Below are positions 1 to 20,036 of a stretch of DNA of 22,262 nucleotides, in pieces (within the stretch, counting starts at the first letter, position 1; each line of letters opens with the position of its first letter). Under the pieces are notes generated by a model that was not told the origin of the DNA, did no database searches, and worked only from the letters and a program-made list of their open reading frames with translations. This DNA is from a virus. Where the stretch lies: IMG/VR virus record IMGVR_UViG_3300025896_000201, positions 1-22,262 of that record. The stretch is one strand, 5' to 3'. The position numbers and the translations under genes were made by a program.

Positions 1-75
1 CCATGCGGCTGGCACCAGCGGGCCTAACTGGTCGTTCGAGCCGACCTCGGCCGGCGTTGTGTCTTTGGCGCTCAT
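1..75 (-). CDS. 5' end of an unknown gene, starting inside attC site A (runs off left edge)
   Basis: An ATG at 75-73 is preceded by an AAAGGAC Shine-Dalgarno sequence (89-83) at good spacing, the same ribosome site used by the phage lysis genes at 19150 and 20026. The frame is open for 25 codons to the window edge and begins MSAKDTTPAEVG. I do not recognise the product. The ribosome site and start codon both sit in the loop of the attC A hairpin, and codons 18-20 are written across the attC core at 22-28. Only the N-terminus is visible, so reality of the gene rests on the start context and on its position directly after the gene at 128-697. Confidence 0.5.
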   Translation of the reverse strand, partial: MSAKDTTPAEVGSNDQLGPLVPAAW

Positions 76-126
76 GTCGTCTGTCCTTTCGCCGGCCTGG
101 TCGGCGGCTCAACTTGCACGTTGTGC
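22..126 (+). repeat. attC site A (integron cassette recombination site), long form with large loop
   Basis: GCCTAAC (22-28) is an R''-type core and GTTGTGC (120-126) an R'-type core with one departure from GTTRRRY. Between them GAGCCG and CGGCTC form the L''/L' arms, followed by a GC-rich 8-bp stem, GGCCGGCG (49-56) with CGCCGGCC (90-97), and a 33-nt loop (57-89). At 105 bp it is within the known attC range but long compared with the three other sites here. The loop holds the ribosome site and start codon of the gene at 1-75. The GTTGTGC core matches the R'' box GCACAAC of site B exactly as expected for the two ends of one cassette. Confidence 0.75.
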
Positions 127-127
127 T

Positions 128-697
128 TCACGCGGCCTGCCCAGAATGCTGGTCGAGCCACGCCTCGATCCGTTCCTTGGCATATGCCGGCAGCTTCTTC
201 TCGTTCTCGTAGAACGAGACATAGGTGGTGTCCACGCCGGCCTCTCGCGCCACCGCGGCCTGCGTCATTCCAAACGCTTGGCGCAGCGCGAACAGCGTCT
301 TCACCGTGCCGAAGTCAGCATGCTCGGACTTCATGTGCTCGCGCAGGTTGGCGAAGCTGCGGTTGCAACACGGGCACACGCCGTTCATCACGCGCTCGCG
401 CATCTTGCGGTGCGCCTTGGTCACTTGGGCCAAGTTCTGCTCGGCCTTGCCGGCGCGCGCTTCTGCTGCTTCGCGCACCTGTCGTTGCCGCTCAACCTCG
501 GCAGCCTTTGCCGCCAACTCGCTACGCAGTTTGTCCTCGGTCGACTCGCGGTATGAGGCGGTGTGCCCGTTCGGACAGTAGATGTCGCGCTTGTCTTTAC
601 GGCGAGCGTCCCACCAGTGCCGTGGTGCCGCGTACAGCACGCCGCACTGGCCGCACGCATGCGCCTCCATCTCTTGTTGCTCTACAAACGTTGCCAT
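128..697 (-). CDS. zinc-finger, coiled-coil and HTH protein (cassette gene)
   Basis: This 189-aa protein has three parts. Residues about 15-45 carry a CxxC pair and a later Cys/His pair, consistent with a zinc ribbon. The middle is a charged, Glu/Lys/Ala-rich stretch likely to form a coiled coil. It is followed by a compact C2H2-type motif (CPCCNRSFANLREHMKSEH). The C-terminus is an XRE-like helix-turn-helix (LRQAFGMTQAAVAREAGV and a YVSFYENEKKLP recognition part). It is probably a DNA-binding regulator. The stop TGA (130-128) lies just after the attC A core, so the gene fills one cassette between sites A and B. I know no named family for the whole architecture. Function is inferred from motifs only. 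Confidence 0.85.
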   Translation of the reverse strand: MATFVEQQEMEAHACGQCGVLYAAPRHWWDARRKDKRDIYCPNGHTASYRESTEDKLRSELAAKAAEVERQRQVREAAEARAGKAEQNLAQVTKAHRKMRERVMNGVCPCCNRSFANLREHMKSEHADFGTVKTLFALRQAFGMTQAAVAREAGVDTTYVSFYENEKKLPAYAKERIEAWLDQHSGQAA

Positions 698-728
698 CGC
701 TATCTCCTGCGCGCTTCGGTTGGGTGAA

Positions 729-782
729 GCACAACCCCTCTCTCGACCGGACCGTCCCGGCCGGTCAACTCAAACGTTAGAA
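729..782 (+). repeat. attC site B
   Basis: R'' box GCACAAC (729-735) and R' box GTTAGAA (776-782) enclose a nearly perfect hairpin: GACCGG (745-750), an unpaired A751, CCG, loop TCC, CGG, then CCGGTC (761-766). The single extra-helical base in the 5' arm is the usual attC polarity mark and places the site rightward, opposite to the neighbouring genes. Site length is 54 bp, close to the common minimum. The stop codon of the HAD gene (779-777) lies within the R' core. Core pairing with sites A and C supports cassette ends rather than chance repeats. Confidence 0.88.
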
Positions 783-1310
783 CTCACCTTCCGCCACATG
801 GAAACACGGCACGCCAGCGTCGCGCCACATCTTCACCACTCGTGCACGGTCATCGAACACGGCCGTCAGGCGCTTGTACTCGGGCGGCTCGATCTGCGAC
901 AGCCATTCCGACTTCACCACCACGTCATCGCGATAGTCGCCGGCCTTGCGCATGCGGAACGCTTCAGGGGCAGAAAACCACCCGCCGAACTTCACCCCGC
1001 AATGCTTGGCAAGCCAGTCCTTCGTAGCTTCCTGGCATTCGTCACTGCGACCAGACCAGATCCACACCTCGGCGCCGGCCTCGCGCAGCGCCCGCATCGT
1101 GCGAATCACAGGCGTGTTCGGCACGTCGGCGTGCACTGCGCCGAAGAACGCGCGCCAATCCTTCTTGAATGCCGGGCGCGTGCCATCGCGCGAGTGGTCG
1201 CATTCCTTGAGCCACCCGCAATGCGGGCAGGCCGGGGGCGTGATGTAGTGCAGCCGGTGCTCAATCAGCGCCAACGTGCCGTCCAAGTCGAAGATGTACA
1301 AATCTCTCAT
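777..1310 (-). CDS. HAD-family phosphatase, polynucleotide kinase-phosphatase (PseT) C-domain type (cassette gene)
   Basis: The 177-aa protein opens with HAD motif I, FDLDGT, with the nucleophile and acid at D8 and D10. Motif II is in WIWSGRS, a candidate motif III Lys in VVVKSEWL, and motif IV is the DDR of VFDDRARVVKMWRDAG. The last part, including VAEGEF, matches the 3'-phosphatase domain of T4 PseT/Pnkp-like enzymes, which act on nucleic acid or nucleotide ends. There is no kinase domain, so it is a stand-alone phosphatase. An insert after motif I has CPHC plus a further Cys and His, a possible metal site. GGAG at about 1319-1316 serves ATG 1310. The start overlaps the upstream stop by ATGA, and the stop TAA lies in the attC B core. 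Confidence 0.9.
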   Translation of the reverse strand: MRDLYIFDLDGTLALIEHRLHYITPPACPHCGWLKECDHSRDGTRPAFKKDWRAFFGAVHADVPNTPVIRTMRALREAGAEVWIWSGRSDECQEATKDWLAKHCGVKFGGWFSAPEAFRMRKAGDYRDDVVVKSEWLSQIEPPEYKRLTAVFDDRARVVKMWRDAGVPCFHVAEGEF

Positions 1311-1597
1311 CGCTTCTCCACCAGAGTTCTAACAGTCACTCGTTCGGACTCGCTCCGCTCGCCGCACAGCTCGGCGTTAGGCGTCACGCTGTCTTCGAAG
1401 CCGTGCTCCACAGGTCTCCAGTCGCCGCCGTGCTTTTCCTTCATGTCCAGCGCGCGGAAACCGGCCGACTGCTGGCGCCGCAGCCTTCTGGCCGCGTACA
1501 CGTCGGCCGTGATGGTCATCGCGCCTTGGTCGAGCATGTAGCGCCCGGTACTGTTGCCTTCCGGGCCAAACTCCTCAACCAACCATGCGTATGTCAC
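1307..1597 (-). CDS. hypothetical protein whose C-terminus reads through attC site C
   Basis: The product is 96 aa and of no family I recognise. The N-terminus resembles small phage proteins of the MTYAWLVEEFGPEGNSTGRY type; the middle is Arg-rich. The start ATG (1597-1595) overlaps the upstream stop by ATGA. The frame stays open across the whole attC C site, so roughly the last 25 residues are encoded by attC DNA and the edge of the next cassette, ending in a TGA that overlaps the ATG of the HAD gene. The gene has thus borrowed its stop codon from the neighbouring cassette and is probably translationally coupled to it. Confidence 0.65.
   Translation of the reverse strand: MTYAWLVEEFGPEGNSTGRYMLDQGAMTITADVYAARRLRRQQSAGFRALDMKEKHGGDWRPVEHGFEDSVTPNAELCGERSESERVTVRTLVEKR
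1327..1382 (+). repeat. attC site C (degenerate stem)
   Basis: R'' box TTCTAAC (1327-1333) and R' box GTTAGGC (1376-1382) flank a 56-bp site with imperfect inner arms (CGGAC near 1344-1348; CGCCG near 1360-1364). The stem is weaker than in sites B and D, so it is called mainly from its cores and spacing. TTCTAAC is the exact complement of the GTTAGAA core of site B, and GTTAGGC that of the GCCTAAC core of site D, which is the signature of genuine cassette ends. Confidence 0.75.
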
Positions 1598-1812
1598 GAG
1601 TAGTCCTCGTCAAAGTTGCAAGCCACCGTCCACTGCTTGCCGCATCGGTGGCACTCCACGATGTCGTGCTCGTCCACCACGCCGCAGCAGTCCACCGTGC
1701 GCGGCTCCGGGCAGCGGTGCAGGTGCTTCTGACAAAGCTCGGGCTTTTCGGCATCGTGCAGGCTGCACCCGCCTTTGATTCGGCCGCTCTCATAGCGCTT
1801 AGGCGTCGTCAT
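1594..1812 (-). CDS. small Cys/His-rich hypothetical protein
   Basis: From ATG 1812 the protein is 72 aa, beginning MTTPKRYESGRIKGG. It has seven Cys and four His residues arranged as spaced C/H pairs, ending with CHRCGKQWTVAC, so it probably binds zinc. No HTH or catalytic motif is visible. It overlaps the end of the upstream gene by 14 nt and its stop overlaps the next start by ATGA, in line with a tight leftward operon. A longer frame back to 1881 exists but would lie wholly inside the upstream gene, so the shorter start is preferred. Confidence 0.65.
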   Translation of the reverse strand: MTTPKRYESGRIKGGCSLHDAEKPELCQKHLHRCPEPRTVDCCGVVDEHDIVECHRCGKQWTVACNFDEDYS

Positions 1813-2080
1813 ACAGGTCGTGTTTCTGGCACAGGCTGTCCATGTCCAATCGGGCGCGGTACACCGCAAGTTGGCGCCCATCGCGCTGCACCACGTAGCG
1901 GTAACGCTGGCCCGGCAGAATCTTCCACTTGTCAGCCTTCACACCTTCCAGCATCAGCAACTCGTCTGCGGTCAGCGGCACATCAGGCGGCGGCGGCCCA
2001 TAGTTGCGCCAGTGGTAGCTGGCGTCGCAGTCATAGAACTTGCGCGCCGTTCGCTCTTCGTCAGTCAGTACCAATGCCAT
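1799..2080 (-). CDS. hypothetical protein, first gene of cassette between attC C and D
   Basis: About 93 aa, beginning MALVLTDEERTARKF. It has a Pro-rich turn (GPPPPDVPLTADEL) and a basic C-terminal half, with no recognised domain. Two adjacent ATGs occur at 2083 and 2080. GCGAGGAA directly upstream is spaced better for 2080, which I chose. The gene starts about 25 nt inside the cassette relative to the GCCTAAC core of attC D. Confidence 0.65.
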   Translation of the reverse strand: MALVLTDEERTARKFYDCDASYHWRNYGPPPPDVPLTADELLMLEGVKADKWKILPGQRYRYVVQRDGRQLAVYRARLDMDSLCQKHDLYDDA

Positions 2081-2105
2081 CATTTCCTCGCTTCGGCGCC
2101 ACGAC

Positions 2106-2158
2106 GCCTAACCCGTCATTCGAGCCGACCTGTCGGCGGCTCAATTCCCACGTTAAGC
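2106..2158 (+). repeat. attC site D
   Basis: R'' box GCCTAAC (2106-2112) and R' box GTTAAGC (2152-2158) flank a textbook 53-bp site: GAGCCG (2122-2127), extra-helical A2128, CC, loop TGTC, GG, CGGCTC (2137-2142). Arms and spacers look much like the aadA-type attC of mobile integrons. As at site B the unpaired base sits in the 5' arm of the top strand, so the site points right while the genes point left. The stop TAA of the gene at 2153-2359 is inside the R' core. Confidence 0.9.
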
Positions 2159-2359
2159 CTCAACCCAACGCCACACCCACTCGTCAGACACGAGCTCGTC
2201 GTACTCGACCTCCAGCCGCCCGGCCTTCACGCCCAGCGGGAACAGGGAACCGACGACCGGCACTCCGGCGTCGCGCAACTCGCGCAGCACCAACAGCCCG
2301 CGGTGCACCTCGCTGTCAAACTTGGCCAAGCGGGCCGCTGCGATTCGGACTTCGATCAT
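2153..2359 (-). CDS. small hypothetical protein
   Basis: From ATG 2359 (GAGGGTGAC just upstream) the protein is 68 aa, MIEVRIAAARLAKF..., acidic at the C-terminus with several Trp residues near the end. It has no recognised domain. The stop TAA (2155-2153) falls in the attC D core, a common arrangement in integron cassettes, although here relative to the other end of the site. The start lies one base after the stop of the upstream gene, so the pair is coupled. Confidence 0.6.
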   Translation of the reverse strand: MIEVRIAAARLAKFDSEVHRGLLVLRELRDAGVPVVGSLFPLGVKAGRLEVEYDELVSDEWVWRWVEA

Positions 2360-2360
2360 G

Positions 2361-2585
2361 TCACCCTCGCTGCGATTCAATTGTGGCCTTCGCGGCCTCA
2401 ACATCGTCGCCGCACGCCTTCATCACCGCGCCATTCAACACGGCGATCTCCACCATTAGCCAGTAGATGAGGTTGTCGCCGACCAGATCGCGCCAGGGTT
2501 CGCCGTAGCGCAGTGCGTGCATGCGGCCATCGTTCTCGCGGATGACGGTGTACTTGCCACCGTCCAATTCAACACGTTGAGTCAT
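2361..2585 (-). CDS. phage-type hypothetical protein (MTQRVELDGGKYTV family)
   Basis: From ATG 2585, preceded by GCGAGG at suitable spacing, the product is 74 aa and starts MTQRVELDGGKYTVIREN. Small proteins with this opening and a following RYGEPWRDL block are, from memory, common hypothetical proteins of phages and prophages of Burkholderiales. No function is known to me. A longer frame to 2630 lacks a ribosome site. This is the gene nearest the repressor and thus the first accessory gene read after it on the left strand. Confidence 0.75.
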   Translation of the reverse strand: MTQRVELDGGKYTVIRENDGRMHALRYGEPWRDLVGDNLIYWLMVEIAVLNGAVMKACGDDVEAAKATIESQRG

Positions 2586-2737: not shown

Positions 2738-3001
2738 TCACTTCGCGGCTTTCTCTGCTGGCTCCCGCATGTTCTTGCGGCACGATCGGGCGAACTCGCA
2801 CCGCGCGCAACCGCTGTTGAGATCCTCACGGCGCAGATCGAGACCGACCTTGCGGGCAGCCTTCTCGACGGTGATGGCCGTGAGGGACTTGATGCCACGA
2901 CGACCGCGGGCGTAGTGCCGCAGCATGTCGTAGCTGATGCCAGACTTCGCGCTCAGTTGCCGAAGCTGTTCGGCGGTGAGCCGGCGGATGTTGATTCGCA
3001 T
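2738..3001 (-). CDS. small HTH regulator (phage repressor or Cro-like candidate)
   Basis: The 87-aa protein has an N-terminal helix-turn-helix of Cro/CI type (LTAEQLRQLSAKSGISYDML, then RHYARGRRGIKSLTAITVEKAA). It has no CI-type autoprotease domain. The C-terminal tail carries three Cys (CARCEFARSC), unusual for such regulators and possibly a metal or redox site. It is the only gene reading left from the divergent promoter region, the place where lambdoid phages keep cI. No ribosome site precedes ATG 3001, and the predicted transcript starts at or next to that ATG, so the message may be leaderless. Whether it is the lysogeny repressor or another regulator cannot be told from sequence. Confidence 0.8.
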   Translation of the reverse strand: MRINIRRLTAEQLRQLSAKSGISYDMLRHYARGRRGIKSLTAITVEKAARKVGLDLRREDLNSGCARCEFARSCRKNMREPAEKAAK

Positions 3002-3815: not shown

Positions 3816-4045
3816 GCAAGACAACCACCAAGCCGCGGCGCCCGAAGTCGCGATACCGCTACGTGTTCGAGGTGTACCGCGCCAAAGACGGATGGCGGTG
3901 GCGACTGTGGGCCCGCAACGGCCGCATCGTGGCCGTCAGCGGCGAGGCGTACAAGCGCGCTGCAGCGGCCGTCAAGCAGTGCGAGAACTTGCAGGACTAC
4001 GCTGCCCAGTCGACCGTGTTTCTCAAGGGCAAGGAAATGCTGTGA
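3812..4045 (+). CDS. DUF1508 (YegP-like) domain protein
   Basis: 77 aa from ATG 3812. After a Lys/Arg-rich N-terminus the body (YVFEVYRAKDGWRWRLWARN, then GRIVAVSGEAYKRAAAAVKQ) is a single DUF1508 repeat as in E. coli YegP, which has two. The family is small, single-domain and of uncertain function; phages carry it quite often. Coupled to both neighbours by ATGA and GTGA overlaps. A possible earlier ATG at 3779 lies inside the upstream gene and is not preferred. Confidence 0.8.
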   Translation: MSKTTTKPRRPKSRYRYVFEVYRAKDGWRWRLWARNGRIVAVSGEAYKRAAAAVKQCENLQDYAAQSTVFLKGKEML

Positions 4046-5400
4046 CCGAACACGCCAAGCTCTCACCCTCCGGCAGCAAGCGCTGGTTCGCCTGCCCCGG
4101 CAGCCTAGTGCTGGAAGCACCGATCCCCAACAAGAGCAACACCTACAGCGACGACGGTACTGCGATGCACCACGTCGCCGCGCTGTGCCTCACCGAGCAC
4201 TGGCGCGCGAGCAAGTACGTCGGCCAGGACATCCCGGTCAACGCCAAGCACGAAGAGCCGCGCTTCGTCGAGTTCACCGACGACATGGCCGACCTCGTGC
4301 AAGGCTACGTGGACACCGTGCGCAAGATCGGCATCGGCAACCGCATGCTCGTCGAGACGCGCGTGGACTTCTCGGAGTTCGTGCAGATCGAGGGCCAGTT
4401 CGGCACCGCCGACTGCATCATCTGGCACGAGCAGGACGGCGAACTGGGCGTGTACGACCTGAAGACCGGCCACACGCCGGTGACGGTCGAGCGCAACACG
4501 CAGGCGATGTTCTACGCCCTCGGTGCACTGCGTTACCTCATGGACGAGGACGTGGCCACCGGTGCCGGCGACCCGTTCGCGTGGGCCGAGGAAGCCGGGC
4601 TCAAGACCATCCGCCTGGGCATCTACCAGCCCAAGGTCTACAGCAGCGGCATGGAGGAATGGCAGTGCACGCTGCAGGATCTGCGCGAGTTCGCGAACCT
4701 GGCGCGCAGCAAGGCCGCCAGCGTGCGCAACGCCGAGGCGATGCACGGCAAGATCCCGATGGAAGAGTGGGACCGCACCTTCCTCAACCAGAACCCGAAC
4801 GAAGAAGAGTGCGCCTTCTGCCGCGCCATGTCGACGTGCCCGAGCGCGCGTCGCAAGGTCGAGCAGGTGGTCGGCGCCGACTTCAACGTGATCTCCGACC
4901 CCGAGACCGAGGTGCACCAGTTCGTGAGCAAGAACACCAACCCCCGTGATCTGTCGCTCAAGATGTCGGCCGCCGGCTTCTTGGAGGACTTCTGCAAGGC
5001 CGTGCGCGCCGAGACCGAACGGCGTCTGCTCAACCGCGAGGAAGTGCCCGGCTTCGGTCTGGAGTTGGGCCGCCAGGGCCCGCGCAAGTGGAGGGACAAG
5101 GACGAGGTCACCGAGATCGTGCGCAAGCAGTTCCGGCTGGCCGAGGCCGATGTCTTCAACATGAAGCTCAAGAGCCCCACCCAGTTCGAAGACACGCTGC
5201 TCAAGCCGGCCGAGGGCCAGACCAAGCCCGTGCTCGGCCCGCGGCAGTGGAAGAAGCTGCAGGAGCAGATCACGCGCAGCGAGCCCAAGCCCAGCGTCAA
5301 GCCCGCCGGCGCGATCAAGAAGCCCTACACCCCGCCGGCGCCGACCGACGAGGACTTCACCACTGTGGCCGACGAGCCGGCCGACGAGGATCTGTACTGA
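4042..5400 (+). CDS. DUF2800 protein: PD-(D/E)XK nuclease, Cas4/AddB-like with iron-sulfur cysteines
   Basis: 452 aa from GTG 4042 (GTGA overlap). The N-terminus SPSGSKRWFACPGS supplies the first Cys (C18). GQFGTADCII is followed by the catalytic DLK (D139, K141) and the QAMFY motif (Q154, Y158), the pattern of RecB/Cas4-type nucleases. C257, C260 and C266 (EECAFCRAMSTC) are the remaining iron-sulfur ligands. The tail after about residue 330 is charged and Pro-rich. DUF2800 proteins in phages accompany DUF2815 and a family A polymerase, as here, and are thought to process DNA ends in replication or recombination. All key residues appear present. Enzyme activity is inferred from the family. 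Confidence 0.92.
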   Translation: MTEHAKLSPSGSKRWFACPGSLVLEAPIPNKSNTYSDDGTAMHHVAALCLTEHWRASKYVGQDIPVNAKHEEPRFVEFTDDMADLVQGYVDTVRKIGIGNRMLVETRVDFSEFVQIEGQFGTADCIIWHEQDGELGVYDLKTGHTPVTVERNTQAMFYALGALRYLMDEDVATGAGDPFAWAEEAGLKTIRLGIYQPKVYSSGMEEWQCTLQDLREFANLARSKAASVRNAEAMHGKIPMEEWDRTFLNQNPNEEECAFCRAMSTCPSARRKVEQVVGADFNVISDPETEVHQFVSKNTNPRDLSLKMSAAGFLEDFCKAVRAETERRLLNREEVPGFGLELGRQGPRKWRDKDEVTEIVRKQFRLAEADVFNMKLKSPTQFEDTLLKPAEGQTKPVLGPRQWKKLQEQITRSEPKPSVKPAGAIKKPYTPPAPTDEDFTTVADEPADEDLY

Positions 5401-5401
5401 C

Positions 5402-5728
5402 ATGGACAACCAGCACCGCAAGATTGCCGGCTACCGCGAACTGTCGCAGGCCGACATCGACATGATGAACACCATCAAGGCCCTGGGTCCGCAGATGGAG
5501 GAACTGCTGGCGAAGGTCGCCGAGCACGTGGCCGCGGGCCGCAATCCTCCGCTGACCGAGGCCGACTCGCTGGCCGATCTGGAGGGACGCCCGCGGCCCG
5601 ATTTCAACATGGCACGCGCCCGCATGGATCGCGCGCAGCCCGAGCGCTGGGCCGCGATCGCGCGCACGCACTTTCAGGAAGGGCTCATGGCGTTGACTCG
5701 CGCCGTGGCTCAGCCCACGTTCTTCTGA
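5402..5728 (+). CDS. acb2: Acb2/Tad1-type hairpin protein: cyclic-nucleotide sponge, probable anti-CBASS
   Basis: 108 aa from ATG 5402, one base after the upstream stop. The N-terminus IAGYRELSQADIDMMNTIKA and the C-terminus RWAAIARTHFQEGLMALTRA match the two helices of the Acb2 family, whose members bind cyclic di- and trinucleotides and so block CBASS defence. Y11 and K26 fall at the positions I recall as ligand-binding in the Pseudomonas phage Acb2; the Arg-rich AIART segment would give a further contact. The loop between the helices (about residues 44-80) is longer than in short members such as T4 Vs.4. It sits between two replication genes, fitting early expression. Family call is from memory of motifs, not a search. 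Confidence 0.82.
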   Translation: MDNQHRKIAGYRELSQADIDMMNTIKALGPQMEELLAKVAEHVAAGRNPPLTEADSLADLEGRPRPDFNMARARMDRAQPERWAAIARTHFQEGLMALTRAVAQPTFF

Positions 5729-5762: not shown

Positions 5763-6350
5763 ATGGGCATGAAGATGATGCTCCCCAACGTCCGCTGTTC
5801 GTTCCTCGTCCTGGGCGAGCCGGAGCAGTACCAGGGCAAGGGCCCGTTCCGCTGGAGCGCAACGGCGCTCGTGCCGTACAACAGCGATCTCCACAACAAG
5901 ATCCTCGACGCCCTGAAGTCCACGGCTCGCGACAAGTGGGAGAAGAAGTGGGAGACGGCCTACGAAGGCATCATCGTCGACCCCAAAGGCTGCTGCTACA
6001 TCGACGGCAAGCGCAAGGACTACGACGGCTACCAGGGCCACTACGCGCTGACCGCGCACCGGTACCAAGAGAAGGGACGGCCGCTGGTGATGGACACCGA
6101 CAAGTCGCCGATCTACAAGCCGGACAACACCATCTACGAAGGCAAGGGCGGCCGGGTCTACTCGGGCTGCTTCGTCAACATGCAGGTGGAGTTCTGGGCC
6201 CAGCAGAACGACAACGGCAAGGGCCTGCGCGCCACGCTGCTGGGTATCCAGCGCGTGCGCGACGGCGATGCGTTCGGTGGCGGCGCCGCTCCGACCGCCG
6301 ACGACTTCGGCGAGATCACCGAAGGCGCCGACGCTGACGATCTGTCGTGA
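5763..6350 (+). CDS. DUF2815 ssDNA-binding protein
   Basis: 195 aa from ATG 5763, with AAAGG nine bases upstream. The sequence (MLPNVRCSFLVLGEPEQYQG near the start, then VYSGCFVNMQVEFWAQQN and GLRATLLGIQRVRDGDAFGG) is typical of DUF2815, an OB-fold single-strand DNA-binding family found in phages such as Enc34. The acidic C-terminal tail (TADDFGEITEGADADDLS) resembles that of other SSBs, which use it to recruit partner proteins. It lies in the standard trio of DUF2800, DUF2815 and polymerase. Confidence 0.92.
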   Translation: MGMKMMLPNVRCSFLVLGEPEQYQGKGPFRWSATALVPYNSDLHNKILDALKSTARDKWEKKWETAYEGIIVDPKGCCYIDGKRKDYDGYQGHYALTAHRYQEKGRPLVMDTDKSPIYKPDNTIYEGKGGRVYSGCFVNMQVEFWAQQNDNGKGLRATLLGIQRVRDGDAFGGGAAPTADDFGEITEGADADDLS

Positions 6351-6690: not shown

Positions 6691-8684
6691 CTGACATCCT
6701 CTACCTTGACACCGAGACGTACAGCACGATTCCTCTCAAGGATGGCGTGCACAAGTACAGCGAAGCCGTTGAAGTCATGATCGTCTCTTACGCGCTGGAC
6801 GATGGACCGGTGCGAGTATGGGACGTGACGGCTGGCGGCGCCATGCCTGACGATCTTGCCGCGGCGCTGGCTGATGAGAGCGTGATTGTCTGGGCGCACA
6901 ACGTCGCTTTTGACCGCACGGTTATCAAGGCTGGACTGGGCATTGACATCCCGCTTGAGCGCTGGCGCTGCTCCATGTGCTTGGCCTACATGCACTCCAT
7001 GCCAGGCGCTCTTGATGCGCTGTGCGCGGCGCTGGAGGTGGCGCAGGACAAACGCAAGCTGAAGACCGGCAAGGATCTGGTACGCCTGTTCTGCATCCCG
7101 CCGACCGAAGCCTCCGGCCGCAAGCGCGCCACCCGAGAGACGCACCCCGAGAAGTGGCAAGAGTTTCTTGAGTACGCAGGCGCTGACATCGTGGCGATGC
7201 GAGAGTGCATTGCAAAGCTGCCGAAGTGGAACCTCAACGAGAGCGAGCTCGCCATGTGGCGGCTGGATCGCGTCATCAACGAGCGCGGTATTGCGGTTGA
7301 CCTTGAGTTCTGCGAAGCCGCCGTGCAGGCAGCCGATGCGGAGAAGCTGCGGCTTGCCGAGCGCGCAGCCGAGATGACTGATGGCGCAGTGCAGGCCGCC
7401 ACCCAACGCGATGCGCTGCTTGCGCATTTGCTCAAAGCCTACGGCGTCTCGCTACCCGACATGCAAGCCGGTACGCTTGAGCGCCGGCTGGAAGACCCCG
7501 AACTGCCCGAGCCGGTCAAGGAGCTGCTGCACATCAGACTGCAAGCCAGTGGCACGAGCGTCAGCAAGTACAAAGCATTTTTGCGCGCAACGTCCAGCGA
7601 CGGTCGCCTGCGCGGCACGCTTCAGTTCGGCGGTGCCAGCCGCACTAACCGCTGGGCCGGTCGGCTCGTGCAGTTGCAGAACCTGAGCCGCGTACCGAAG
7701 TACCTGAAGAATCAGTACGACTTCGCGGTGGAGACGATCAAGTGCGGCGCTGTGGAACTTGTTTACGACAACGCCATGGACGTGATCGGGTCTACGGTGC
7801 GCGGTGCACTGATTGCGGCACCGGGAAAGAAGCTGTGCCGCGCTGACTTGTCCAACATTGAAGGTCGCGTACTCGCTTGGCTTGCCGGCGAAGAGTGGAA
7901 GATCAAGGCGTTTGCCAACGGTGACGACCTCTACATTGAAGGCTACTCACGGTCGTTTGGCGTGCCAGTGGAAGAGGTGCGCGCTGACGAGGAAGCTGGC
8001 GGAACGATGCGGCTGATCGGCAAGGTCCAAGAATTGGCCTGCGGCTTCCAAGGGGCTGTCGGCGCGTTTGGCAGCATGGCGAAGCTCTACGGCGTGAACC
8101 TTGACGAAGACCGCGTGCTTGAGATCGTGCGCGCTTGGCGTGCCGCAAATCCGAACATCGCAGCCTTCTGGTACGACTTGGAAGACGCGGCGATTCGCGC
8201 GGTCAAGGTGCCCGGAGAGACTCAGACTTGCGGCAAGCTGAAGTTGCGCCGCGACGGCCAGTGGTTGCGCATTCGCCTGCCGAGTGGCCGCGTGCTGTGC
8301 TATCCATCGCCAAAGTTTGAGCCGAAGAAGACCGTTGATCTTGCGACAGGCGAGATGGTTGACAACCCGCACGGTGGCTTGAGCTACGTTGGACTCAACC
8401 AATATTCTCGGCGCTGGGAGCGCTTGCGCACATATGGGGGCCGGCTCGCGGAAAATGTGACACAGGCAACCGCCCGGGACGTGTTCGCCGAAGGGCTCAA
8501 GCGTTGCGAAGCCAACGGCTACCCGGTCGTCATGCACGTTCACGATGAGGCGATCTGCGAGACGCCCGACACCGATGAGTATAGCGGCGAAGCGGTAGCA
8601 AGGTTCCTTGCCACGCCGCCTGACTGGGCCAACGGTCTGCCCTTGGCGGCCGAAGGTTCCGAGACCAAGCGCTACAGGAAGTGA
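6687..8684 (+). CDS. family A DNA polymerase with 3'-5' exonuclease domain
   Basis: 665 aa from ATG 6687. The N-terminal DnaQ-like exonuclease shows ExoI LYLDTET (D8, E10), ExoII AHNVAFDRT and ExoIII YAGADIVAM. The polymerase domain has motif A CRADLSNIEGR (catalytic D387), an O-helix-like motif B (IGKVQELACGFQGAVGAF) and motif C MHVHDEAICE (H619, D620, E621). No 5' nuclease domain is present, as usual for phage enzymes. Third codon positions are visibly poorer in G+C than in the genes at 3238-6350, suggesting separate ancestry. The annotated longer frame from GTG 6570 would translate the structured RNA and is rejected. Expected to be the phage replicase. Confidence 0.94.
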   Translation: MPDILYLDTETYSTIPLKDGVHKYSEAVEVMIVSYALDDGPVRVWDVTAGGAMPDDLAAALADESVIVWAHNVAFDRTVIKAGLGIDIPLERWRCSMCLAYMHSMPGALDALCAALEVAQDKRKLKTGKDLVRLFCIPPTEASGRKRATRETHPEKWQEFLEYAGADIVAMRECIAKLPKWNLNESELAMWRLDRVINERGIAVDLEFCEAAVQAADAEKLRLAERAAEMTDGAVQAATQRDALLAHLLKAYGVSLPDMQAGTLERRLEDPELPEPVKELLHIRLQASGTSVSKYKAFLRATSSDGRLRGTLQFGGASRTNRWAGRLVQLQNLSRVPKYLKNQYDFAVETIKCGAVELVYDNAMDVIGSTVRGALIAAPGKKLCRADLSNIEGRVLAWLAGEEWKIKAFANGDDLYIEGYSRSFGVPVEEVRADEEAGGTMRLIGKVQELACGFQGAVGAFGSMAKLYGVNLDEDRVLEIVRAWRAANPNIAAFWYDLEDAAIRAVKVPGETQTCGKLKLRRDGQWLRIRLPSGRVLCYPSPKFEPKKTVDLATGEMVDNPHGGLSYVGLNQYSRRWERLRTYGGRLAENVTQATARDVFAEGLKRCEANGYPVVMHVHDEAICETPDTDEYSGEAVARFLATPPDWANGLPLAAEGSETKRYRK

Positions 8685-8686
8685 CC

Positions 8687-8893
8687 ATGCCCAAGATGTA
8701 CGACCCGACCACCATGACCGTGACCGACACCGACGACACGCCAGCCGAGCGCGAACCCCGCTGCAACCGCTGCGGCAGCACCGACGTGCGCTGGCGCCAG
8801 CAGACCGGCAAGTGGGTGCTCTTCAGCAACGAGCCGGGCAAGGTGCACGTCTGCGACCTGAGCGACGATGCCTTCGACGTGGTGCCGGAATGA
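8687..8893 (+). CDS. small zinc-ribbon-like protein
   Basis: 68 aa. ATG 8687 has AGGAAG at proper spacing; an in-frame GTG at 8681 overlaps the polymerase stop but is too close to that site. The core, CNRCGSTDVRWRQQTGKW then HVCDL, has a CxxC pair and a later H-x-C, enough for one zinc. Similar small proteins are frequent in phage replication operons; function is unknown. Confidence 0.75.
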   Translation: MPKMYDPTTMTVTDTDDTPAEREPRCNRCGSTDVRWRQQTGKWVLFSNEPGKVHVCDLSDDAFDVVPE

Positions 8894-9105
8894 AGTGCCC
8901 GCACTGTGGCAGCGCTCGCAAGCAACCGGTCTACGAGACGCGCCGCGACGAGGCGAGGGTCTACCGCCGTCGAACCTGCATGGGCTGCGGCCGAGGTTAC
9001 GTGACCGAAGAGTTCACCAGTGTTGACCTCAAGATGCCCGCGCATCTGTGCTCGGGTTCGGACATCACGGCGCGGCGGCGCGCCAAGGGAGCCGCACATG
9101 AATAG
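8890..9105 (+). CDS. NrdR-like zinc-ribbon protein
   Basis: 71 aa from ATG 8890 (ATGA overlap with the upstream stop). MKCPHCGSARKQPVYETRRD followed by YRRRTCMGCGRGYVTEEF matches the N-terminal zinc ribbon of NrdR, with two CxxC pairs and the RRR segment, but the ATP-cone domain that completes NrdR is missing. It may be a small DNA-binding regulator or an Ogr-like transcription factor. The frame begins at a coupled start, although a longer frame exists upstream within the polymerase. Confidence 0.75.
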   Translation: MKCPHCGSARKQPVYETRRDEARVYRRRTCMGCGRGYVTEEFTSVDLKMPAHLCSGSDITARRRAKGAAHE

Positions 9106-10876: not shown

Positions 10877-11075
10877 ATTTCACTTGTGGTCTAAAGAGAG
10901 CTTGGTCAAGTTTGCCGAAGAAGCCACTGCCAAGCTCGCTCAGCTCCAGCAGGAAAACGACGAACTTCGGCAGACCGCCAAAGGTTTGCTTGCCGGGTGG
11001 CGGGCAGAGGTTGCCAAAAATGGAGCGTCTGCTACACTGCCTGCGTCACCCAAACAGGAGAGCCGCCATGCGTGA
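10869..11075 (+). CDS. small coiled-coil protein
   Basis: 68 aa from ATG 10869, overlapping the helicase end by 8 nt and preceded by GGAGAA. The central part (EEATAKLAQLQQENDELRQT) has a heptad pattern of a parallel coiled coil, so it probably forms dimers. No known family. Its codons, like those of the next gene, are less GC-rich than those of the flanking genes. Confidence 0.7.
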   Translation: MAEFHLWSKESLVKFAEEATAKLAQLQQENDELRQTAKGLLAGWRAEVAKNGASATLPASPKQESRHA

Positions 11076-11433
11076 CCATCTTCTCGGCTGCCAAGCCTTC
11101 CTGCCGCCCGAGCCGGAACCGCAGGACCGCACCATTCACCTGAAGCGCCGTTTTCCACTGGGCGTGCCCGAACGCAAGTATCGCCAGATGGAAATTGAGA
11201 TGGTCAAGGCCATCGAAGACAAGCAGAAGATCACGGCGTTCGAAGACTTTGACCACACGCCGCCGGAAATGCAGGCCGACTTCCCGCGCGAGTACGACCT
11301 CAAGACGATGCTCAACGAGACCGCCAGCCGCTTGACGTTCCCCTATCACAAGGGCATGTTGGTGCCGGAAGAGTACGAAGCGCTGTCGCGGTTCTACGAC
11401 GCCGAACTGCAACGGCTTTGCGGCATCAAGTGA
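11068..11433 (+). CDS. hypothetical protein
   Basis: 121 aa from ATG 11068 with AGGAG eight bases before it. The protein is charged and mainly helical (YRQMEIEMVKAIEDKQKITA in the middle, VPEEYEALSRFYDAELQRL at the end), with no catalytic motif I recognise. The 8-nt overlap with the coiled-coil gene and the GTGA overlap with the next place it in the operon at the border between replication and glycosylation genes. Confidence 0.75.
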   Translation: MRDHLLGCQAFLPPEPEPQDRTIHLKRRFPLGVPERKYRQMEIEMVKAIEDKQKITAFEDFDHTPPEMQADFPREYDLKTMLNETASRLTFPYHKGMLVPEEYEALSRFYDAELQRLCGIK

Positions 11434-12044
11434 CGCCATCTCCGAAGCCTGACTGGCGCGGCCACACCGCAGTGGTCGTCGCCAGCGGCCCGAGCCTCAC
11501 CGACGAGCAGATCGTGCACGTCGAGCACGCGAACGTGAAGACGATTGCGGTGAACAGCAGCTATCTCAAGCTCGCACACCCCGACGCCGTCTATGCCTGC
11601 GACTACCTCTGGTGGAAGACGAACCACATGAAGGTCAAGCAGAACATCGGCCGCGAGAAGCTGTGGACGCAGGACCGCGGCGCGGCCGAGCAGTTCTGCC
11701 TCGGCCACATCCGCTGGGAGGCCAAGGACGGCCTGGGCAAGATCGGCTTGCGCGTCAACGGCAACAGCGGCGCCGGGGCGATCAACCTCGCCTACCACTT
11801 CGGCGTGCGGCGCATCCTGCTGATCGGCATGGACATGAAGCCGGGACCGAACGGCGAGAAGCACTGGCATCCGGATCACCCGAAGCCGCTCGTGCAGGCC
11901 CAGCAGTTCGAAGAGTGGCGCAAGAAGATGGGCGTGCTCGCCGCCGATCTGAAGGCCGCTGGCGTGACGGTCGTGAACTGCACGCCTGGCTCGGCGCTCA
12001 CGCACTTCCCGATGGGCGATCTGGAACAGGAGCTCGCGCGATGA
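11430..12044 (+). CDS. DUF115/MptE-like (Maf-related) protein, norphogenetic-type
   Basis: 204 aa from GTG 11430 (GTGA overlap). HTAVVVASGPSLTDEQIV is the Gly-Pro-Ser motif of the DUF115 fold; the second half has AINLAYHFGVRRILLIGMDM and a HWHPDHP loop. This fold is shared by 6-hydroxymethylpterin diphosphokinase MptE, Maf flagellin glycosyltransferases and some sialyltransferases. Phage members are often called norphogenetic protein. As it opens a run of glycosyl- and methyltransferases, a sugar-transfer role is more likely than pterin synthesis, but this is inference. Confidence 0.82.
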   Translation: MTPSPKPDWRGHTAVVVASGPSLTDEQIVHVEHANVKTIAVNSSYLKLAHPDAVYACDYLWWKTNHMKVKQNIGREKLWTQDRGAAEQFCLGHIRWEAKDGLGKIGLRVNGNSGAGAINLAYHFGVRRILLIGMDMKPGPNGEKHWHPDHPKPLVQAQQFEEWRKKMGVLAADLKAAGVTVVNCTPGSALTHFPMGDLEQELAR

Positions 12045-12820
12045 GCCGCATCGCGGTCTTCTGCATCCGGCCCGAGCCTGCCTACCGCGCGCAGGCGATC
12101 AGCAACGGCCTCGCGCGGCTGGGCTACAAGCTCTACTCGTCGCCCTACCCGAACAACCGCTTCAGCCCTCACGGCCCCGAAGATCTGCTCGTGATCTGGA
12201 ACCGCAAGCGCGGCATCGACGAGCAAGGCGCCGATGCGTGGGAGCGCAAGGGCGGCACCGTGATCGTGCTGGAGAACGGCTACTTGCAGAAGGTCGACAA
12301 GACCTACTACGCGGTCAGCGTGCACGGCCACAACGGCTCGGGCTGGTTTCCGGTCGGCGACGACAAGCGCTTTGACAAGCTGGGCTGGACGGTCAAGCCG
12401 ATGCGTGACGGGGGCCAGTACATCCTCGTGCGCGATCAGCGCGGCATCGGCTCGACGCTGATGGCCAGCCCGCCCAACTGGGGCAAGCGCATGGAAGCGA
12501 ATCTGCGCCGGCACGCTCCGTTCCCGGTCAAGCTGATGGCGCATCCCGGCGACAAGGGCAAGCTCGACAAGGACGCCCAGGCCCTGGCCGGCGCGCGCAG
12601 CGTCGTGATCTGGAGCAGCGCGATCGGCGTGCGCGCTCTCGTCGAAGGCATCCCGGTGCAGCACTTCGCACCGCGCTGGATCTGCGAGAAGTGGGAGGTG
12701 AGCCGCGAGGCGGCGTTGGAGCGCATGGCTCACGGCCAGTGGCACTTCGACGAGATCGCGACGGGCGAGCCGTTCGCTCGCATTCTGGCCAAGCTGAAAG
12801 AGAGTCCGCGATGGGTCTGA
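12041..12820 (+). CDS. GT-B-like glycosyltransferase candidate 1 (KpsS/KpsC-like C-terminus)
   Basis: 259 aa from ATG 12041 (ATGA overlap). The N-terminal half has an alternating strand-helix pattern; the C-terminal half has VVIWSSAIGVRALVEGIPV, resembling the donor-binding S-S-x(n)-EG-x-P motif of capsule glycosyltransferases. It is a paralogue of the next gene: KLGxTxxPxR..GxYILV, then PVK and SSA/SSS..EGxPV occur in the same order. Not a clear match to one CAZy family by eye. Confidence 0.65.
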   Translation: MSRIAVFCIRPEPAYRAQAISNGLARLGYKLYSSPYPNNRFSPHGPEDLLVIWNRKRGIDEQGADAWERKGGTVIVLENGYLQKVDKTYYAVSVHGHNGSGWFPVGDDKRFDKLGWTVKPMRDGGQYILVRDQRGIGSTLMASPPNWGKRMEANLRRHAPFPVKLMAHPGDKGKLDKDAQALAGARSVVIWSSAIGVRALVEGIPVQHFAPRWICEKWEVSREAALERMAHGQWHFDEIATGEPFARILAKLKESPRWV

Positions 12821-13578
12821 CCCTCTACCCCGTGCCCGGCAAAGAGAAGAGCAAGCTCATCTGCAACGCCTTCGCCGCCGGCGCACCCAAGCACGCCACC
12901 GGCGCCGTCTTCTTCGGCACCGAGGGCCAGATGCAGAACTTCCGCCGCGCGCAGCAGGGCACGTGGTGGTACATCGACAACTCGTATTTCGACAAGCACC
13001 GCGGCATCTACTTCCGCGTCACGAAGAACGCGCTGCAAGTCGACCCGCGGGGCAAGACCAGCACCGGCGAGCGCTTCGCGAAGCTGGGCATCACGATCCG
13101 GCCGTGGCGGATCAACCCCGAGGGCTACATCCTGGTGTGCCCGCAGTCCGACGACTTCATGAAGTCGACGCTCGGCAACGGGCCTGGGTACAACTGGACG
13201 GAAGAGACGCTGCGCAAGCTGCATGAGATGCAGGGTCTTGCCGACATCGGCTCCCCGGTGAAGGTGCGGCCCTGGAACCGCGACAAGAAGGCCGCGGCGG
13301 TCACGCTGGAGAGCCTGCTGCCGAACGTGCGCTTGCTGATCTCGCACAGCAGTTCGGCAAGCATCACGGCGATGATTGAGGGCGTGCCCTCGCTCAGCAT
13401 CGGCCCGACCGCGGCGGCGTACCATCTCACCGGGCCGTTGACGCCCGAAGCCCTGGTGCGGCCGCCGACCCCGGACGACCCGCTGCGGCTCAGGTTCTGC
13501 GAGATCCTGGCCGACAACCAGTTCACCTTGGAAGAGTTCAAAAACGGGACTGCATGGCGATGGCTGGAAAAGACGTGA
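12811..13578 (+). CDS. GT-B-like glycosyltransferase candidate 2, paralogue of the upstream gene
   Basis: 255 aa from ATG 12811, overlapping its paralogue by 10 nt. Motifs in order: WWYIDNSYFDK, RFAKLGITIRPWR..GYILV, SPVKVRPW, and LLISHSSSASITAMIEGVPS with a downstream GPTAAAYHLTGPL segment that would line the sugar-nucleotide pocket. Possible earlier duplication followed by divergence with different donor or acceptor specificity. No signal peptide or membrane segment is seen, so it should act in the cytoplasm. Confidence 0.68.
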   Translation: MGLTLYPVPGKEKSKLICNAFAAGAPKHATGAVFFGTEGQMQNFRRAQQGTWWYIDNSYFDKHRGIYFRVTKNALQVDPRGKTSTGERFAKLGITIRPWRINPEGYILVCPQSDDFMKSTLGNGPGYNWTEETLRKLHEMQGLADIGSPVKVRPWNRDKKAAAVTLESLLPNVRLLISHSSSASITAMIEGVPSLSIGPTAAAYHLTGPLTPEALVRPPTPDDPLRLRFCEILADNQFTLEEFKNGTAWRWLEKT

Positions 13579-14126
13579 AGAAGGGGTGGTTCTCCACCCC
13601 GGGGCGGCCGGGCGATCGGACGCTGGAGCAGCAACTCAACGGCCTGGATCGGCTGTTCATGGCCGCGCACGGAAAGACAATCCTTGACCTCGGGTGTGCT
13701 GAAGGGCTGATCAGCATCGAACTGGCCAAGGCCGGTGCGCTGGCGGTGCACGGCGTCGAGATCGTGCCGGGGCACGTCGAGGTGGCCAACAAGCTGCGTG
13801 GCGATCTGCCGGTGACGTTCGAAGTCGGCGACGCCAACGTGTGGCAGCCCAAGCGCAACTACGACATCGTGATCGCGCTGGCGCTGCTGCAGAAGGTCCG
13901 CAACCCCACGGCGGTGGCGGCGCGCCTGGCCGCCTCGGCGCGCGAGCTCGTCGTCCTGCGCCTGCCCCCACAGCACGCGCCGACGATCATCGACGAGCGC
14001 TCGGGCAACGAGCCGCACCACATCGGCACCGTGATGAAGAACGGCGGCTGGTACGTCGAGCACGCCGGCTACGACGGTGCCTTCGGCGAATATGTGGGCT
14101 ACTACCGCAGGAACAAGAATGCCTGA
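13575..14126 (+). CDS. class I SAM-dependent methyltransferase 1
   Basis: 183 aa if started at GTG 13575, which overlaps the upstream TGA (GTGA) and has GGA seven bases ahead; in-frame ATGs at 13554 and 13560 are alternatives. Motif I is TILDLGCAEGLISIELA, the acidic motif II VHGVEIV, and motif IV-like YDIVIALALLQKV. This is the nucleotide-binding core of a Rossmann methyltransferase. Substrate unknown; in this setting a sugar, nucleoside or protein are all possible. Confidence 0.82.
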   Translation: MKKGWFSTPGRPGDRTLEQQLNGLDRLFMAAHGKTILDLGCAEGLISIELAKAGALAVHGVEIVPGHVEVANKLRGDLPVTFEVGDANVWQPKRNYDIVIALALLQKVRNPTAVAARLAASARELVVLRLPPQHAPTIIDERSGNEPHHIGTVMKNGGWYVEHAGYDGAFGEYVGYYRRNKNA

Positions 14127-14634
14127 CCTGATTCCTCTTTACCGCGAACTCGCGGCCAAGGACAGCAACAACTTCCAGGGGCTGTCGATCCTTCAGCACA
14201 AGGAACGCATCCAGAAGCTGGCGCGCGAGGTGCGCGCGAAGAGCATGCTCGACTACGGCTGCGGCCGTGGCGACGCCTACCGCAGCCCGCACAAGCTGCA
14301 CCACCAGCTGGGCATCGCCCGCGCCGATGTCACGCTCTACGACCCGGCCTTTCGCCGCGACGACGTGCTGCCGACCGGCAAGTTTGACCTCGTGCTGTGC
14401 AGCGATGTGCTGGAGCACGTGCCCGAAGACCAGGTCGACGAAGTGATCGCGCGGCTCTTCAGCTACGCCCGCTACGCGGTCTGGGCCTCGGTGTGCTGCC
14501 GACCGGCCAAGAAGACCTTCCCGGACGGCACGAACATGCACGTCACGGTGCAACCCTACGAGTGGTGGCGCCGCAAGTTCCAGACGTGGGCCGACGCGAC
14601 CAACATCCGCTTCGAACTGACGGAGACGCCCTGA
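14119..14634 (+). CDS. class I SAM-dependent methyltransferase 2
   Basis: 171 aa from ATG 14119 with AGGAA upstream, overlapping the previous gene by 8 nt. Motif I is SMLDYGCGRGDAY, followed by DVTLYDPAF and FDLVLCSDVLEHVPEDQV, the latter a very typical Methyltransf_11/25 signature. The C-terminal YEWWRRKF is also seen in phage relatives. It is not closely similar to methyltransferase 1. The stop overlaps the next ATG as TGATG. Confidence 0.85.
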   Translation: MPDLIPLYRELAAKDSNNFQGLSILQHKERIQKLAREVRAKSMLDYGCGRGDAYRSPHKLHHQLGIARADVTLYDPAFRRDDVLPTGKFDLVLCSDVLEHVPEDQVDEVIARLFSYARYAVWASVCCRPAKKTFPDGTNMHVTVQPYEWWRRKFQTWADATNIRFELTETP

Positions 14635-15407
14635 TGGGCTACGGTGATTGGCTCATGGCGGCCGGCGAGGCCAAGGCGGCGCACGCTGCTACCGGCCGCC
14701 CTGTGCTGATCACCGACCCGGCGGGCAAGCCCCAGTGGTCCGAAGTGTTCGCCAACAACCCCTACATCCTGCGCAAGCCCGACGGCCGCCCGTTCGTGCG
14801 GGTGATCAGTTCCTCCGGCCACCGGCCCTACATCGCGGCCAAGAGCGCGGGGCGGTGGACGTGGAAGCCGTACAAGCCCAAGCCCGCCGAGATGTTCTTC
14901 ACGCCCGAGGAACTGGCGTTCGCCGAGCCGTACCGCGGCGCGGTGCTGGTCGAGCCCAACGTCAAGGCCACCGGCCGCTCCAACAAGGCGTGGCCGTGGC
15001 ACAGCTGGACGCAGTTCGTCGCCTGGGCACCGCAGTACGTGCGAGGTCTGCGGCTCTTGCAGTGCGGCCCGGCCAGCACGAAACGGCTGCCCGATGTGGA
15101 GTTCGTCGAGACGCCCACCTTCCGGCACGCGCTCGCGGTGCTCTCGGTGTGCCGCGCGCTTGTCACGACGGAAGGCGGCCTGATGCACGGCGCCGCAGCG
15201 GTCGGCGTGCCCGCCGTGGTGCTGTGGTCGGAGTTCATCGACCCGAGCATCACCGGCTACACCACGCATCGCAACATTCGCCACGCCTCCAAGACTTGCG
15301 GCATGCGCATCAACTGCGCCAGCTGCCGAAGGTCGATGGAGATGATCCCGGTCAAAGAGGTGACCGACAACCTGATGGAGATTCTGCGCAATGAAGAAGG
15401 TCGATAG
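14634..15407 (+). CDS. GT9-like (heptosyltransferase-type) glycosyltransferase
   Basis: 257 aa from ATG 14634. The C-terminal half carries TTEGGLMHGAAAVGVPAVVL, the donor-binding signature of ADP-heptose:LPS heptosyltransferases and other GT9 enzymes, with WPWHSWTQFVAWAP before it. The N-terminal acceptor domain is short compared with true WaaC/WaaF (about 320-350 aa). It ends with a Cys-rich CGMRINCASC. GT-B fold; cytoplasmic. Suggests transfer onto LPS-core-like or other sugar acceptors. Confidence 0.8.
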   Translation: MGYGDWLMAAGEAKAAHAATGRPVLITDPAGKPQWSEVFANNPYILRKPDGRPFVRVISSSGHRPYIAAKSAGRWTWKPYKPKPAEMFFTPEELAFAEPYRGAVLVEPNVKATGRSNKAWPWHSWTQFVAWAPQYVRGLRLLQCGPASTKRLPDVEFVETPTFRHALAVLSVCRALVTTEGGLMHGAAAVGVPAVVLWSEFIDPSITGYTTHRNIRHASKTCGMRINCASCRRSMEMIPVKEVTDNLMEILRNEEGR

Positions 15408-16053
15408 CTGGTGGTTCCCGGACGGTGAGAGGCACCTGCCGGAGTGGATGGCCAACGCCAAGAACCGCATCATCCTCAACGGCCGCCCGTCCTACCAGGG
15501 CAAGAAGCAGATCGCGTGCATCAACGCGGTGAAGAAGTACAAGGGCACCGCGCGCACCGCGATTGACGTTGGCGGACACATCGGCCTTTGGTCGTTCAAT
15601 CTGGCGGCGGCTTTTCAGCACGTCCTCGCCTTCGAACCGGTGGCAGCGCATCGTGAGTGCTTCGCCCGCAACGTCGAAGCGCGTAACGTCGAATTGATCC
15701 CGTGTGCGCTGGGCAAGGAAGAGGGCAGCGTCAGCATCTACACGGCGCCCACCAGCAGCGGGGACTCCTACGTCAGCGGTGGTGGCGAGATTCCGCTGAA
15801 GATGCTTGACACGTTCACGTTGGCCAACGTCGATTTCATCAAGATCGACTGCGAGGGCTACGAAGAGAACGTGCTGCGCGGCGCCGAGCATCTGCTCAGG
15901 ACGTGGAAGCCGGTGGTGTGCGTCGAGCAAAAGCGCGACATGGCCAGCACCCGCTTCGGCCTTGCGCCGCTGGGCGCCGTCAAATTCTTGCAGACGCTGG
16001 GCTACGGCGTCGAGCAGGAGATCGGCGGCGACTACATCATGGTGACCAAGTGA
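15391..16053 (+). CDS. FkbM-family methyltransferase
   Basis: 220 aa from ATG 15391, overlapping the upstream gene by 17 nt. Motif I AIDVGGHIGLWSFNLA, then LAFEPVAAHRECFARN and DFIKIDCEGYEENVLRGAEH are diagnostic of FkbM methyltransferases, which O-methylate sugars and other hydroxyls. This is the clearest sign that the island modifies carbohydrate. A lower-GC third position is visible in parts of the gene relative to neighbours. Its stop overlaps the next GTG. Confidence 0.92.
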   Translation: MKKVDSWWFPDGERHLPEWMANAKNRIILNGRPSYQGKKQIACINAVKKYKGTARTAIDVGGHIGLWSFNLAAAFQHVLAFEPVAAHRECFARNVEARNVELIPCALGKEEGSVSIYTAPTSSGDSYVSGGGEIPLKMLDTFTLANVDFIKIDCEGYEENVLRGAEHLLRTWKPVVCVEQKRDMASTRFGLAPLGAVKFLQTLGYGVEQEIGGDYIMVTK

Positions 16054-16412
16054 GCGGCATCGGAATTGACGCTTGGTTGGCGCAGCAAGAAGCTGAAGAG
16101 CAGAAGCACAAGTCTAGGCTGAAGCCTGGGCAACTGCATCTTGCCGCCATGCTGGACCAACTGGCGCGACAGATTGCCATCGGCGCAATGGGCGACGTGA
16201 CTGATTGCGTAGTGTTCGTGCGCGGTGTCAAGTCCTCGGCAATTGTGACGCTGCCCAAAGAGCCGGTCGCGGAAACGCTGAAGCGGCTGGGGGACGCTGA
16301 AATCTACCTGAAGACTGGCGAACTCCCGCCCCGAGAGATGCCTTGGCACGGATGCTCCAATTGCACCGAAGGCCGCAATCCTGAGTGCCCCGACCACGGA
16401 AACTACGCATGA
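16050..16412 (+). CDS. hypothetical protein with C-terminal Cys cluster
   Basis: 120 aa from GTG 16050 (GTGA overlap). No domain recognised; the middle (DVTDCVVFVRGVKSSAIVTL) looks like a beta-rich fold. The C-terminus WHGCSNCTEGRNPECPDHG has CxxC, a later Cys and a His, likely a zinc site. Codons are clearly less GC-rich than those of the glycosyltransferase genes on either side, which marks it as a recent insertion in the island. Confidence 0.7.
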   Translation: MSGIGIDAWLAQQEAEEQKHKSRLKPGQLHLAAMLDQLARQIAIGAMGDVTDCVVFVRGVKSSAIVTLPKEPVAETLKRLGDAEIYLKTGELPPREMPWHGCSNCTEGRNPECPDHGNYA

Positions 16413-17125: not shown

Positions 17126-17288
17126 GAAGCCCGTGATGAAGAAGCCCGCGGCCAAGAGCATGAGCAAGGCCGAGATGAAGGTCGAGAAGGCCGAGATGAA
17201 GATGGCCAAGAAGCTGCCGCCGGCCGACCGCAAGAAGTTCGCCGCGCTGCACAAGGGCGAGATGAAGATGGAAGGCAAGGAGAAGTAG
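17103..17288 (+). CDS. small Lys-rich repetitive protein
   Basis: 61 aa from ATG 17103, overlapping the upstream gene by 23 nt and preceded by GGAG. About one third of the residues are Lys, with a repeated KAEMK-VEKAEMKMAKK pattern and Ala/Met in helical phase. Such proteins may bind nucleic acid or act as a virion-internal basic protein. No assigned family. Confidence 0.7.
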   Translation: MATMPKGKKPVMKKPAAKSMSKAEMKVEKAEMKMAKKLPPADRKKFAALHKGEMKMEGKEK

Positions 17289-17290
17289 CC

Positions 17291-19150: not shown

Positions 19151-19160
19151 AGGTGTCCTT

Positions 19161-20026: not shown

Positions 20027-20036
20027 GCGCGTCCTT

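Follow-up and report, generated by a model that had tools for sequence, protein, structure and literature searches.

The window, i.e. the whole stretch of DNA analysed here, is the IMG/VR record IMGVR_UViG_3300025896_000201 of 22,262 bases, which is a fragment and not a whole genome. Genes running rightward from ~3.2 kb encode phage-type proteins, including a DUF2800 exonuclease (4042-5400) and a Gp2.5-like annealing protein (5763-6350), both recognised by profile matches, as well as a DNA polymerase and a helicase. The backbone also has a gene at 5402-5728 (+; PF24729, E 3e-14) that belongs to the Acb2/Tad1 hairpin family, which is known to sequester the cyclic-nucleotide signals of CBASS/Thoeris defence. 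Within 10900-22262, one of the seven long ORFs tested had a PHROG match (a methyltransferase, 15391-16053), and the remaining right half is unannotated.

A leftward operon starts near 3.0 kb, passes through backbone genes at 2585-2153, and enters a cassette array at the left end of the window, where the cassette genes are co-directional with the operon. A small putative DNA-binding protein is encoded at the head of the operon (2738-3001, -), with only a weak MerR match (E 0.004) that lies below the cut-off, and a search for a consensus promoter of the leftward operon found none. The backbone gene phrog_3052 (2361-2585, -; PHROG match) is outside any cassette and is common to the related phage contig L001 (IMGVR_UViG_3300009095_000026, 44.6 kb), which encodes a major head protein, an internal virion protein, and an endolysin. 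The TTA of the R' box at the border of the array serves as the stop codon of the last backbone gene (2153-2359, -), which also has a counterpart in L001 (94% protein identity; 94% DNA identity over 1 kb).

Rfam at the gathering threshold gave no match in the window, and a dedicated attC covariance model was therefore built from 30 attC sites, all of bacterial-chromosome origin, with the R and L stems set by hand. This model identified exactly four attC sites in the 22-kb window, all on the + strand: site A (22-126; R'' GCCTAAC at 22-28 and R' GTTGTGC at 120-126; 43.6 bits, E 5e-9), site B (729-782; R'' GCACAAC, R' GTTAGAA; 23.4 bits, E 6e-4), site C (1327-1382; R'' TTCTAAC, R' GTTAGGC; 26.7 bits, E 9e-5), and site D (2106-2158; R'' GCCTAAC, R' GTTAAGC; 56.6 bits, E 3e-12), which is the right border of the array and the place where the homology to L001 starts. 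Site A has a long loop that holds the start of the next leftward gene, and sites B and C are weak, with some R-box consensus positions missing. Up to E=10, neither strand of the window gave a fifth match. The model also found no attC site in 244 kb from 18 other related phage loci, including the DUF2800 relatives L002-L010 (35-40% identity) and the relatives of the w2 phosphatase described below (L011-L019).

These sites divide the left end into one truncated and three whole cassettes. The right-hand end of the first, cassette 'beta' (1-120), is closed by site A, and its gene (MSAKDTTPAEVG..., -) runs from 75 down to 1, where it is truncated by the contig end. Cassette w1 (121-776; opener TTGTGCTTCAC), which ends on the G of the R' box of site B, carries a gene for a zinc-binding/HTH protein of 189 aa (128-697, -; HTH_3, E 2e-7; phrog_33336, E 6e-22), antisense to attC. 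Cassette w2 (777-1376; opener TTAGAACTC) carries a gene for a polynucleotide kinase-type 3'-phosphatase (HAD_PNKP) of 177 aa (777-1310, -; PF25109, E 1e-30; phrog_415, E 1e-40), whose TAA stop codon is the TTA of the R' box. Cassette w3 (1377-2152) contains three leftward genes, namely w3a (1799-2083, -; 94 aa; phrog_13613, E 4e-23) and two ORFs, w3b (1594-1812, -; 72 aa, Cys-rich) and w3c (1307-1597, -; 96 aa), both of which are kept in the contigs L135 and L107. The w3c ORF reads through site C, such that its C-terminus is encoded by part of this attC, and the start of the next gene overlaps its stop codon.

In the three whole cassettes, the two ends are exactly complementary over 11 (w1), 9 (w2), and 9 (w3) bases, extending beyond the R box. 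With two cassettes of a sister phage (8 and 9 bases), such complementarity was observed in all five cassettes (8-11 bases). The locus meets several of the criteria for a cluster of attC sites lacking integron integrases (CALIN): at least two close attC sites (four within 2.1 kb, E 3e-12 to 6e-4), a single attC orientation (all +), and an opener that is the complement of the closing R'' box (three of three whole cassettes). Co-directionality of the genes with attC, a typical but not strictly defining trait, is not met in the window: all cassette genes are on the - strand and all attC sites on the + strand, and the gene strand is backed by the families HTH_3, phrog_33336, HAD_PNKP, and phrog_13613.

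A previous sequence-only reading had proposed four attC-like sites, with the opening bases of three segments complementary to their closing R'' boxes. Both claims held: an independent covariance model finds all four sites, and the complementarity is longer than was claimed. Its extent for the cassette region, 22-2585, held only in part, since the array ends at the site D crossover (2152/2153) and the genes at 2153-2585 are backbone common to L001. The phage repressor that it placed beside the cassettes is unsupported, the gene at 2738-3001 having only the sub-threshold MerR-like match, and it missed that the attC sites point right and all the cassette genes left.

Cassette exchange between related phages

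L001 and the window share 93-98% identity across most of the replication region, and their homology begins at window 2150, in the R' box and crossover of site D. Left of this crossover, L001 contains two different cassettes, each with its own attC site. Two further viral scans with the backbone proteins returned only the contig of L001 itself. L001 also has an insertion relative to the window at 8200-8910, and a tRNA-like stretch lies within it near 8690-8755.

In the contig L123, a backbone of the L001 type (86-97%) is joined to a third array, which comprises four cassettes. The second of these is the left-edge cassette of the window, 'beta', which is complete in L123: the end of the window is identical to positions 6832-6953 of the L123 reverse complement (122/122 bases), and the window and L123 then diverge immediately past G|TT at site A. 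In an assembly graph with k=123 (JGI assembly settings), two branches share 122 bases where they fork. The window and L123 contigs may therefore derive from one sample containing both junctions; if so, they are not independent genomes. L123 also carries an Acb2/Tad1-type gene at 54-281 (reverse-complement 7678-7905; PF24729, E 1e-16) within a cassette of the array, and a counter-defence gene therefore travels as an integron cassette.

Cassette w3 was found as a unit in L135 (79%) and L107 (82%), where its neighbours are unrelated and the homology breaks at the crossover. Among internal blast ends in all phage contigs fetched, 14 fell on the crossover in both partners (one of them within a single isolate record), as against 0.02 expected at random. 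Cassette exchange at G|TT is thus documented for the window versus L001, L123, L135, and L107. The array is genuine, and its cassettes vary between sister phages, switching exactly at the G|TT crossover. In four other pairs (L086 and L113, L033 and L060, L052 and L064, and L066 and L127), single cassettes or whole backbones are in common and the breaks lie at or near attC crossovers; we read these pairs as more natural examples of exchange.

The claim of the sequence-only reading that integron cassettes are joined to a phage genome is therefore supported, as relatives show the same junction with different cassettes, a comparison that this reading had itself put forward as a check. Neither of the outcomes that it had named as refutations, i.e. 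no model matches or fixed repeats, occurred: all four sites match the model, and the repeats are rearranged. We conclude that the left end of the window is in all likelihood an integron gene cassette cluster without an integrase (CALIN) in a phage genome, with the reservation that recombination at these sites by an integron integrase has not been assayed.

Orientation and cargo of the cassettes

The antisense orientation extends to the cassette genes of L001 and L123 and to most cassettes in other phage contigs. In phage contigs, 72 cassette genes were antisense and 16 sense to attC (37 vs 4 loci), whereas the same script applied to bacterial loci gave 3 antisense and 91 sense (0 vs 26 loci). 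Twelve viral loci from isolate genomes or with intI were bacteria-like in this respect (1 antisense vs 14 sense). The 72:16 count leaves out some viral loci that were excluded by hand after the data had been seen; with no exclusions, it becomes 78 antisense vs 31 sense. The survey used one type of attC seed motif, genes were called by ORF length alone, the contigs are related, and the flanking genes were often ambiguous. The 16 'sense' cassettes of phage contigs are probably for the most part miscalled ORFs, because none of the 15 scanned had a PHROG match and one (L135) is homologous to the antisense w3.

Antisense ORFs match PHROG families, chiefly DNA methyltransferases, with Mom, Lar, and NinX once each; the cargo of related arrays includes the counter-defence families DNA methyltransferases, Mom, Lar, and Acb2/Tad1. 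The stop codon lies exactly within the R' box in 25 of the 72 antisense phage cassettes. The cargo in the window is phage-like, and its genes look phage-derived rather than host-derived, because the PNKP phosphatase gene occurs in only 2 of 698 bacterial genomes and has homologues in other phages without attC. Searches of the cassette DNA against phage records, plasmids, and 399 Burkholderiales genomes returned no matches or only short ones within common motifs. The open-access literature searched contained no description of cassettes that are systematically antisense, nor of sister phages exchanging cassettes. The antisense layout is apparently new; CALINs in phages themselves are already known.

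Proposed mechanism and alternative explanations

The intI gene that a complete integron requires is missing from both the window and L001: no tyrosine recombinase (PF00589) match was obtained in the window, itself a fragment, or in the 44.6-kb record of L001. Such a recombinase is also absent from 15 of 20 other phage records with arrays of this kind, and an intI-like protein is encoded by only 4 of 118 viral loci. The site type resembles the attC of Burkholderiales, Rhodocyclales, and Xanthomonadales integrons, and four of six genomes checked from these groups encode an integron integrase above the curated cut-off. Because no recombinase was found in the phage records, the sites resemble those of these bacteria, and most of the genomes checked carry an integrase, we infer that a host probably supplies the integrase in trans, which is the simplest source; no host or integrase has been identified.

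The left border of the window's array lies outside the window. The first cassette of L001 is preceded by ...CATCACG|TTATGC, and the left borders of both L001 and L123 lack a recognisable attI-like second box. A short perfect palindrome lies 9-11 bases before G|TT, to the left of the first crossover, in L001 (6338-6376; CTTACTTTGCAAAGTAAG) and in the L123 reverse complement (6240-6275; CGACATGTCG). This palindrome may be part of an attI-like entry site.

The best overall explanation, which we consider likely, is a phage CALIN that is served by a host integrase in trans and expressed from a phage operon; the transfer and expression steps are inferred. As part of this explanation, the phage is probably podovirus-like, with the array at the downstream end of its leftward operon. 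During infection, a host integron integrase would act in trans on the folded bottom strands of attC and would thereby excise and insert cassettes, which would circulate mainly among phages. Since the operon runs leftward into the array, the array is inferred to be expressed from its attI-distal end, where the phage operon promoter would replace the Pc promoter, and such expression would select cassettes whose genes are antisense to attC. Read along the gene, the mobile unit would be [attC - ribosome-binding site - gene - stop], with attC upstream and not downstream of the gene; this unit is proposed because the commonest position of the stop codon in phage contigs is the R' box, where its TAA reads as TTA. 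With genes antisense, the recombinogenic bottom strand of attC may also come to lie on whichever strand is more exposed, favouring mobilisation. Inversion of the chromosomal integron of Vibrio cholerae places the recombinogenic strand on the lagging-strand template and increases cassette excision (PMC11023631). Strand exposure might thus account for the inverted layout in phages, as might expression from the phage promoter; both are untested proposals.

A bolder reading, which in our judgement could as easily be wrong as right, holds that phages keep their own cassette pool, which host integrases would move in trans and counter-defence genes would stock. The same evenly balanced doubt applies to the other half of this joint claim, that the pool is structurally unlike the bacterial one, with genes antisense, attC upstream of the gene, and a stop codon that forms part of the crossover box. 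If true, an integrase belonging to the host may reassort the genes with which its attackers counter defence (methyltransferases, Mom, Lar, and Acb2/Tad1-type genes). Research on integrons treats them as devices by which bacteria share resistance and defence genes; the present data suggest that phages swap accessory genes by way of the integron machinery of their hosts. In addition, attC antisense to genes would provide a cheap sequence signature for phage accessory or anti-defence genes in metagenomes.

Among the alternatives, the one that survives best, although unlikely, is that a host chromosomal integron built the array, which then moved en bloc into the phage by illegitimate or homologous recombination, with no integrase acting on the phage. 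Vibrio anguillarum phages gained pieces of host integrons by such recombination (PMC9892861), and integrons of Burkholderiales, Rhodocyclales, and Xanthomonadales have attC sites of this type. Against this, host arrays are sense (91/94) and these arrays antisense, sister phages differ in their individual cassettes at G|TT, neither 399 Burkholderiales genomes nor plasmids contain a long match to the cassette DNA, and the PNKP gene is nearly missing from 698 bacterial genomes. Less plausible still is that the repeats are blocks of homology between which phage homologous recombination swaps genes. The phage does encode annealing and exonuclease functions (the Gp2.5-like protein and the exonuclease), and the attC repeats offer short homology; however, the sites differ from one another at most positions, at the window/L001 border the match upstream of G|TT is limited to a few bases, breakpoints fell on the crossover in both partners far more often than expected (14 vs 0.02) and for the most part do so even where the adjoining attC arms lack homology, and the end complementarity of every cassette is left unexplained. 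That the repeats are no more than intergenic hairpins of the phage, acting as terminators or regulatory sites and looking like attC, is all but excluded: within the operon, each does have a stop codon on one side and a ribosome-binding site on the other, but the model matches show canonical bulges and R boxes, the elements are absent from the other relatives (18 loci, 244 kb), and the whole unit turns over between sister phages.

Comparison with known systems

The sequence-only reading had mentioned chromosomes as a known setting of attC clusters without integrases, which has to be extended to phages: Qi et al. (2023) described 17 CALINs in phages, and in Escherichia coli IntI1 recombined five of six tested phage attC sites with attI1 (PMC9892861). 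Those CALINs, found in virulent and temperate phages, are, like the array in the window, attC clusters without an integrase; their cargo includes DNA methyltransferases, as does that of the related arrays. The cassettes of phages TJE1 and H101 were described as one-directional with a typical structure (PMC9892861), whereas the genes in the window are systematically antisense. When these two isolate phages, the only ones scanned, were searched with our covariance model, attC sites were found in both, in the sense orientation in TJE1 and antisense in H101. In Pseudoalteromonas phage H101 (L207, 26730-28188), the two sites are nearly identical and weak (24 and 21 bits), and the annotated genes between them are antisense to the model strand, although the source paper calls the layout typical. 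No natural exchange between sister phages is reported in the sections of that paper bearing on it, whereas the sister phages described here carry different cassettes.

Insertion at attG sites outside integrons has reportedly been observed and could let a first cassette enter a phage operon at G|TT; the phage case differs in that several cassettes form ordered arrays at a single conserved position within a phage family. The sedentary chromosomal arrays of Burkholderiales, Rhodocyclales, and Xanthomonadales resemble the phage arrays in attC class (GCCTAACNNNTCRTTCGAGCSGAC), in the logic of the R boxes, and in the frequent R-box stop. They differ in cargo and in that their genes run along attC and intI is present, whereas in phage arrays the genes run against attC and there is no intI.
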